From Lachnospiraceae bacterium (lineage in GTDB: Bacteria > Bacillota > Clostridia > Lachnospirales > Lachnospiraceae), in the NCBI GenBank assembly GCA_024691875.1, contig JAILNG010000054.1, positions 20,061-84,060 of the forward strand: a stretch of 64,000 bases of DNA. Direction: 5' to 3'. The stretch's first letter is position 1. Each line of letters begins with the position of its first letter. Below, one piece after another: positions 52,275-60,527 of the stretch. A program made the position numbers and the translations under genes. A model generated the notes under the pieces. The model worked only from the letters and a program-made list of their open reading frames with translations, was not told where the DNA came from and did not search any database.

Positions 52275-52622
52275 TTAGTTAAGTGTAACGATTACAGTGC
52301 CTGCTTCTACCTGGTCGTTAACCTGGCAATTGATGGAAGCGATCGTTCCGTCCTGAGGAGCGGTGAGTTCATTTTCCATTTTCATTGCTTCGAATGTAAG
52401 AATAACCTGTCCTTTTGTAACCTTTGTTCCTGCTGATAAATTGATTGCAGTGATCTTTCCGGGCATAGGCATAGAGATTGCTACGGATCCCTGTGCTCCT
52501 GCGGGAGCTGCTGCCTTGGGAGCTGCTGCGGGTGCTGCAGCCTGTGCTACGTTCTGTCCGTTTCCTTCTTCAACGGTTACGGCATATTTATTTCCGTTGA
52601 TCGTAATAGTATAGTTCTTCAT
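52275..52622 (-). CDS. Biotin carrier protein of the decarboxylase (biotinyl domain)
   Basis: Ala/Pro linker then MPGKITAINLSAGTKVTKGQVILTFEAMKMENELTAPQDG. Confidence 0.93.
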   Translation of the reverse strand: MKNYTITINGNKYAVTVEEGNGQNVAQAAAPAAAPKAAAPAGAQGSVAISMPMPGKITAINLSAGTKVTKGQVILTFEAMKMENELTAPQDGTIASINCQVNDQVEAGTVIVTLN

Positions 52623-52690: not shown

Positions 52691-52822
52691 TCTCGTCAAA
52701 AGGTAACAGCGGCGCAGCCGCTTGTCTATCATGTATAATGACCGCTCTGACAAGCGCGCTTGTCGAGGCGGTTATTATACATGATTGTCATACGATCTTC
52801 GATCGTATGCCTTTTGACGAGA
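52691..52822. repeat. 132-bp multi-branched palindromic (cloverleaf-like) intergenic element with 13-bp terminal inverted repeats
   Basis: TIR TCTCGTCAAAAGG (52691-52703)/CCTTTTGACGAGA (52810-52822); arms AGCGGC-gca-GCCGCT (52708-52722), 58-nt arm 52728-52785, CATACGATC-ttc-GATCGTATG (52789-52809). Confidence 0.85.
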
Positions 52823-52855: not shown

Positions 52856-53203
52856 TTAAGAAATCTTCTTTACAGAACGGACTACAATGCCGTCTTTAAA
52901 GAAATTACCGCGGGATTCCTCATACTCGCTGATGGCTGCGGTAATAATGGCAACAAGCTCAAAATTATCGATATTGAGCTCATTTCCGCTTTGCTGTGTT
53001 GCAACTGCGGGAGCATTGTTAACAGCCTTCTTTTCATTGCTCTTATCTAACTTTCCGATATATTTGAAAAGTGAGATGATGAAGCTGATGAAGATCAAAG
53101 CTGCAAACACAATGCACAAGCCGACAATTGTGTTGACACCGGCATCGGCAAGAGGAGTTTTAACGCCTTCCCACCATGTCGAAGCTGCAAATACTTCTGT
53201 CAT
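52856..53203 (-). CDS. OadG-family (sodium pump decarboxylase gamma subunit) membrane protein
   Basis: Single N-terminal TM (NTIVGLCIVFAALIFISFIISLFKYI), Ala/Gln linker; at operon head. Confidence 0.8.
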   Translation of the reverse strand: MTEVFAASTWWEGVKTPLADAGVNTIVGLCIVFAALIFISFIISLFKYIGKLDKSNEKKAVNNAPAVATQQSGNELNIDNFELVAIITAAISEYEESRGNFFKDGIVVRSVKKIS

Positions 53204-59834: not shown

Positions 59835-60527
59835 TTATTTAAGCTGCAAGTCCAAGTAGGTTTTGTAGGCAGCTTCCTGCTCTGCAGCTTTTTTACTCTT
59901 TCCTTCTCCTTCATGCATAGGTTGTCCGTCTATCAGCACTCTTGCTGTAAAGTGCTTGTCATGATCCGGACCGGATTCGGAAAGTATCTCGTAGGAGATA
60001 TTTTTCTTCAATTTGTTTTGAACGAACTCCTGAAGGATCGACTTACTGTCATGGAATATCGCTTTTTTCTCAATATCGTTCAAAACAAAGCGAAGAACGA
60101 ATTTCTTGGCCTCTTCAAAACCACCGTCAAGGAAAATAGCTCCGATCAAAGCTTCAAAGGCATCCGAAACAATGGAGTCTCTGTATCTGCCGCCGCTTTT
60201 GTTCTCCCCAAATCCAAGGTTGATGAAATCGGAAAGTTTGATCTCTTTTGCATCATTTGCCAGGGAAGGTTCGCAGACCAAACTTGCTCTGAGCTTTGTC
60301 ATATGCCCTTCCGGATAAGCCGGATAATTCAAATACAGATATTCACTGGAGATCAGTTCCAAAACAGCATCGCCCAGGAACTCTATCCTCTCGTTGCTTT
60401 CATTTTTGTTTACCATACGTTCATGAACTACAGAGCTGTGGGTCAAAGCAAGCTTAAGAAGATCTATGTTTTTAAAATCATAACCGATGTTTTTTTGAAG
60501 ATCGTTAAGGTTTTCATTGATAACCAT
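59835..60527 (-). CDS. rnc: Ribonuclease III
   Basis: ERIEFLGDAVLELISSEYLY, C-terminal dsRBD. Confidence 0.97.
   Translation of the reverse strand: MVINENLNDLQKNIGYDFKNIDLLKLALTHSSVVHERMVNKNESNERIEFLGDAVLELISSEYLYLNYPAYPEGHMTKLRASLVCEPSLANDAKEIKLSDFINLGFGENKSGGRYRDSIVSDAFEALIGAIFLDGGFEEAKKFVLRFVLNDIEKKAIFHDSKSILQEFVQNKLKKNISYEILSESGPDHDKHFTARVLIDGQPMHEGEGKSKKAAEQEAAYKTYLDLQLK

Follow-up and report, generated by a model that had tools for sequence, protein, structure and literature searches.

A cloverleaf-shaped element in an oxaloacetate decarboxylase operon is probably one copy of a dispersed, MITE-like repeat family of the Lachnospiraceae

The 132-bp cloverleaf that separates two subunit genes of the oxaloacetate decarboxylase (oad) operon in a Lachnospiraceae bacterium (assembly GCA_024691875.1) probably belongs to a dispersed family of non-coding, MITE-like repeats with stems that are kept mainly at the level of DNA, and probably travels in its host as a passenger. 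It lies in a stretch of 64,000 nucleotides, hereafter the window (contig JAILNG010000054.1, positions 20,061 to 84,060). As a dispersed intergenic cloverleaf family of the Lachnospiraceae it is apparently undescribed, no account of it having been found in Rfam or in the open-access literature searched, and it adds a type of mobile repeat to those of the gut Lachnospiraceae.

The original prediction had read the element as a cloverleaf of perfect 13-bp outer inverted repeats around three hairpins, and its coordinates, letters and parts were all recovered as described. Judged by its relatives, the minus strand, which matches the oad mRNA, appears to be the reference orientation of the window copy, in which the unbulged hairpin comes first and the hairpin with a bulged A last. 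The parts of the element and the two genes beside it are:

52691..52822, minus strand: whole cloverleaf (four-way junction), from the folds, the alignment with its pair counts and the parse of 135 copies
52691..52703, plus strand: left arm of the outer stem, TCTCGTCAAAAGG
52708..52722, plus strand: short hairpin AGCGGC-gca-GCCGCT; its equivalent in the congener G001 has the inverted loop tgc
52728..52785, plus strand: long central arm of 58 nt, capped by the palindrome GACAAGCGCGCTTGTC and interrupted by a 3x3 internal loop (TCT/GAG)
52789..52809, plus strand: perfect hairpin CATACGATC-ttc-GATCGTATG, adjoining the outer stem; inverted loop gaa in G001
52810..52822, plus strand: right arm of the outer stem, CCTTTTGACGAGA
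52856..53203, minus strand: upstream gene, OadG (oxaloacetate decarboxylase gamma chain; Pfam PF04277, OAD_gamma)
52275..52622, minus strand: downstream gene, biotin carrier protein (Pfam PF00364, Biotin_lipoyl)

Within the outer stem, CAAAAGG is the part that recurs among relatives, and the letters at the stem ends differ per copy or per genome with complementarity retained. The four-way junction, which had been proposed to form as DNA or RNA, is feasible as either: as RNA, 52691-52822 folds at -76.4 kcal/mol, compared to a mean of -34.3 for shuffled sequences (z -11.6, none of 200 shuffles as good), and the fold of the opposite strand with DNA parameters reaches -46.2 against -15.9 (z -12.5). 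A repeat finder ranked the long arm as the strongest inverted repeat of the 64 kb by a wide margin. Elsewhere in the window, a 22-bp inverted repeat with 91% complementarity (60004-60097; fold z -3.8) lies within the coding sequence of an RNase III-like gene (59835-60527, minus strand).

The gap between OadG and the biotin carrier is indeed unusually wide, with 233 bp compared to 17 and 22 bp at the next two junctions of the operon, which continues with genes for OAD_beta and then PYC_OADA/HMGL (Pfam). Orthologous copies occupy the same gap in two congeners, G001 and G002, the latter of which carries a further copy at another site, and four others (G003-G006) lack the element in this gap. On the basis of this presence in three congeners and absence from four, we infer that the oad copy was inserted in the ancestor of the three, presumably moved in trans by a putative transposase.

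Searched with BLASTN, the element matches only itself in its own assembly, which taken alone would wrongly suggest that it is unique, so that covariance models were needed. With the first model, built from four sequences (the window copy, the oad copies of G001 and G002, and the other copy of G002), further copies came to light in G003, G006 and G086, as well as a second one in the own genome (G000:C195), at bit scores of about 50-74. The second added a third clear copy at G000:C238, which brings the own genome (80% complete) to three clear copies, and matched at E ≤ 1e-6 in at least 28 of 397 genomes of the bacterial family, a lower bound as scoring covered the top candidates. When six genomes were scored more fully, each yielded 12-79 strand matches; since nearly every copy, being palindromic, matches on both strands, the richest genome, G237, has about 37 copies. 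Across 85,462 species genomes, 77 loci match a 22-base pattern taken from the arm, all of them under titles naming Lachnospiraceae or Eubacterium, and six of the seven genomes with a match among 392 sampled Clostridia belong to the same family. The lone match outside it (L273 in G711) is a long simple hairpin and probably no member. Also set aside were BLASTN matches outside the genus of 17-33 bases (L005-L012), which are at chance level, coding-sequence matches such as L032 from a mismatch-tolerant search with the hairpin ATACGATCNNNGATCGTAT, and two loci that resemble terminator arrays or a lone arm (L039, L040), which were excluded from the counts. Rfam 15 gave no match at the gathering score, the sub-threshold ones being only to eukaryotic microRNA hairpin models and unrelated sRNAs. 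Copies are also present in G631 and G793, which belong to the same genus as G268.

According to a home-made, codon-usage-based gene caller, 122 of the 124 placeable copies are intergenic. Two further, apparently orthologous pairs of insertions in the window's genus lie just past gene 3′ ends, namely L095/L086 (G000 C238 and G001 C9) and L093/L091 (G003 C8 and G001 C28), and could serve to compare the trees of element and genes.

A four-way junction can be drawn on at least one strand for 131 of the 135 collected copies, and the shape is equally good on both strands. The usual layout consists of a hairpin of about 15-28 nt that, in the reference orientation, adjoins the outer stem, an arm of about 50-64 nt with a small internal loop beneath the apical palindrome (often GGAAAGCNNGCTTTCC), a second hairpin of about 15-28 nt in which a bulged A is common, and an outer helix with a median of 12 bp. 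Copies from different genera share the internal loop, the bulge and the apex. In an alignment of 28 sequences, all 39 scored pairs vary on both sides, 87.9% of the paired cells are complementary compared to 63.0% after shuffling, and the covariation score is 0.674 compared to 0.232, a signal that is lost when the partners are slid by 1-3 columns; the outer stem, the 3′ side of which is shifted by one column from group to group, was for this reason excluded from the pair count. The family keeps its shape while the letters turn over almost completely. The original prediction had held that a lack of other copies and of compensatory covariation would speak against both a mobile family and a conserved RNA, and the opposite was found on both counts, with copies in the own and related genomes and strong covariation.

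Very strong covariation, together with paired columns that mutate less and retention in the oad gap of three species, is also what could be expected from a transcribed, cis-acting structural RNA (a processing or stability element, an attenuator or an insulator in untranslated regions) that spread by mobility and was kept as useful. The orientation of copies in the window's genus fits as well, where 10 of the 11 co-directional copies with an assignable orientation point with transcription, several of them orthologues and hence not all independent. We nevertheless consider such an RNA unlikely. Over all genomes there is no orientation bias (29 copies with transcription, 25 against), both strands fold equally well, and many copies sit between divergent or convergent genes, at proportions close to background: 84 are flanked by co-directional, 27 by divergent and 11 by convergent genes, compared to 86, 17 and 16 for the other gaps of at least 60 bp at the same loci. 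The sense strand shows no preference for G-U pairs, of which 177 were counted on the transcribed strand and 204 on the other for copies in co-directional gaps, whereas the same count in a small control of six tRNAs gave 16 and 8. Moreover, the oad gap of some congeners does without the element.

The hairpin loops occur in both orientations. The first hairpin carries AAA in 30 and TTT in 8 cases, the last hairpin AAA in 39 and TTT in 5, and AAC/GTT loops are likewise found both ways. At the oad site itself, the loops GCA and TTC of the window copy face TGC and GAA in G001, with hairpin cores that are otherwise identical. Together with the missing G-U strand preference, these loops fit upkeep at the DNA level by replication template switching, a process known to homogenise arms and invert the spacers between them (PMC8604942), and by which hairpins can arise and be maintained (PMC8794818). 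A replication fork that meets the hairpins or an extruded cruciform may switch template between the arms and copy one arm onto the other; such copying would restore pairing, and in the course of it loops may be inverted and stems lengthened. Among 23 near-identical G237 copies, differences amount to 1.7% in paired columns, 4.7% in the unpaired core and 4.5% in linkers. The lower rate in paired columns fits either correction between arms or selection on structure, and selection on source copies could contribute in part. Conserved bulges and internal loops exceed what pure arm copying would give, which likely reflects some selection on shape, possibly an added selection on unpaired features such as the internal loop and the bulged A.

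Strong covariation is usually taken as proof of a functional RNA, and here it is found at full strength in a dispersed repeat with inverted loops and no preference for the transcribed strand, as template switching would lead one to expect. If maintenance at the DNA level holds, strand asymmetry has to be controlled for when bacterial intergenic regions are scanned for covariation. With a shape that is kept while its letters are replaced, the family amounts to a natural experiment on the upkeep of DNA palindromes, and its dozens of near-identical natural replicates per genome could be used to measure the copying, flipping and correction of palindromes.

The mobility of the family is best resolved in G237 and related mouse-gut genomes, where the cloverleaf lies within an element of about 195 bp with the ends TTTGAGTTTCC and GGAAACTCAAA. 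Around half of the 46 copies with both ends (92 rows, as each copy is listed per strand) are flanked by an exact direct repeat of 8-10 bp, where well under one would be expected, and near-identical copies of this type occupy many unrelated sites. These terminal inverted repeats and 8-10-bp target duplications indicate that relatives of the window element have transposed in the manner of MITEs. The characters of a MITE are thus all present in the G237 lineage except for an autonomous partner, no transposase gene having been seen beside the isolated ends inspected in the draft G237 assembly, among the matches listed, and the G237 element had no plasmid or phage match. The window copy is a MITE only in part: it is short (132 bp), non-coding and without an open reading frame, belongs to a dispersed multi-copy family and has perfect 13-bp terminal inverted repeats, and copies in its genus show neither a terminal repeat beyond the outer stem nor a consistent direct repeat. 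The trinucleotide TCT does stand at both ends of the element, but its suggested role as a 3-bp target duplication was rejected as unsupported, because other copies in the genus lack a consistent flanking duplication. Three G237 loci (L165, L173 and L187) are versions of the G237 MITE, about 60 bp long, that lack the cloverleaf and keep both ends and the direct repeats. In two others (L175 and L192, contigs C5 and C29), the MITE is broken inside the cloverleaf by DNA that begins with GTGTAGTGACATG or GTGTACTGACATG and may be an insertion sequence with the cloverleaf as its target.

Template switching might also give rise to palindromes and enlarge them where they stand, transposition playing little or no part, so that the common shape would reflect a common mutational process. 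Copy-specific complementary stem extensions, inverted loops and homogenised arms speak for this, but as an account of the family it is very unlikely, given near-identical copies with target duplications at many unrelated sites, an internal loop, bulge and apex that recur across genera, and presence or absence that differs between congeners.

What surrounds the cloverleaf differs strongly between genomes. Most have a short outer stem only, while the copies of G348 extend into arms of about 165-270 bp and those of G268 into arms of more than 400 bp, and in G367, JAFUTQ and G348 near-identical cores in one genome have different yet complementary outer-stem letters. Such copy-specific outer stems could stem either from entry into existing hairpins or from extension of the stem in place by template switching. 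The cloverleaf is found at the tips of unrelated palindromic elements (the TTTGAGTTTCC MITE, palindromes of about 500 bp and about 1 kb, short copy-specific stems), which would suit a core that is a portable module recognised by shape rather than sequence, one that inserts into DNA hairpins, caps them or is copied there and whose unpaired bases signal to an enzyme acting on folded DNA; we regard this as a speculative and rather doubtful possibility. It is highly improbable that the element serves a recombinase or HUH-type transposase as a folded single-stranded DNA substrate, following the logic of attC sites or REP hairpins with unpaired bases as recognition signals. The shape and unpaired positions are conserved with the stem letters free, and the outer sequence is not conserved in genomes with short copies, both as such a substrate would have it; in the best-resolved lineage, however, the ends are ordinary terminal inverted repeats flanked by duplications of 8-10 bp, as is typical of DDE enzymes, and no candidate enzyme was found. 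Among the larger structures, eight G348 loci (L101, L058, L109, L120, L158, L159, L160 and L161) have the cloverleaf at the tip of near-complete palindromes of about 500 bp, in the arms of which conserved unpaired segments alternate with copy-specific complementary stems and which fold at about -200 kcal/mol. In G268, L119, L150 and L151 carry the cloverleaf at the tip of palindromes the arms of which exceed 400 bp.

Back at the oad site, the genes of the window and of G001 are 94.5-94.8% identical and the element 67% (74% without gaps), whereas the genes of the window and of G002 are 83% identical and the element 94%. The element tree and the gene tree are thus in conflict, G001 having replaced many stem positions at once with pairing kept, which again speaks for upkeep at the DNA level; no donor paralogue for the G001 version was found. 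The element contains no clear intrinsic terminator, as expected within an operon: the single weak match, on the minus strand inside the cloverleaf, has a T run that is itself outer-stem sequence. Judging from its position, the element would be transcribed within the oad message, the decay of which may be, but need not be, affected. A structured RNA that tunes subunit stoichiometry had been offered as an alternative to a mobile element; a locus-specific regulatory RNA that sets the ratio of OadG to biotin carrier would explain why the element lies between two subunit genes at the same place in three congeners, but it is the least probable of all these readings, as the same element stands beside unrelated genes in its own genome and genus, the gap is empty in G003-G006, the G001 sequence has turned over despite 95% identical genes, the G-U pairs show no strand preference, and there is neither an efficient terminator nor an Rfam family. 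We found no sign of a special function within the decarboxylase operon, and for its host the oad copy is most likely an ordinary, tolerated passenger of a mobile family.

Among known repeats, bacterial MITEs such as ERIC, Correia, RUP and Chunjie (reviewed in PMC10969869) are likewise short, non-coding, dispersed, intergenic and palindromic with stable folds, and they share with the G237 lineage the terminal inverted repeats and the target duplications; copies nested with other repeats are a further common trait. Unlike them, the cloverleaf family has a conserved four-way junction with nearly all letters turned over across a bacterial family, and outer sequences that differ by lineage around a core of constant shape. 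The likeness to a second repeat, bcr1, lies in size, conserved fold and mobile traits, as compared by description. In the Bacillus cereus group, bcr1 is a repeat of about 150 bp with a conserved secondary structure and the traits of a mobile element. It has been catalogued with its fold (PMC2267715) and is homogeneous within one species group of another taxon, whereas the cloverleaf family spans a bacterial family with turnover of its sequence. REP and REPIN sequences, which are associated with RAYT tyrosine transposases (PMC3733652, PMC3116915), are also intergenic, palindromic and non-coding, but they are 20-40-bp hairpins or doublets of these, and the cloverleaf has 130 bp and no conserved GTAG/CGTC tag. 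The outer stem of the window copy does contain CGTC, but in other copies the letters are ACCAAAAGG, GGGGCAAAAGG, TAAATGGG and others, so by the tag criterion (PMC3733652) the family is no REP. Of the proposed label "MITE/REPIN-like", the mobile element accordingly stands, by its copies, dispersal and 8-10-bp duplications in one lineage, and the REPIN part falls. With template-switch hairpins (PMC8794818, PMC8604942) the family has in common the compensatory changes of several bases and the inverted spacers between arms; the hairpins described there are single genes or loci, and here template switching would act on a dispersed repeat family.

The apex of the long arm leads to a second type of palindrome in the same genome. 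The own assembly has 20 copies of the apex GAAAGCNNGCTTTC, with none for a control pattern, and G001 has 18 matches. Most of the copies inspected belong to a second type of dispersed three-hairpin element, which is bounded by GTTACTGTTCACA and TGTGAACAGTAAC and has its long arm to one side of the junction; examples outside the window are L281, L284, L286, L289, L311, L316 and L317 (contigs C172, C2, C67, C128, C49, C184 and C186). The apex is common to this type and to many cloverleaf copies, and the GTTACTGTTCACA/TGTGAACAGTAAC elements may be a sister family of the cloverleaf.
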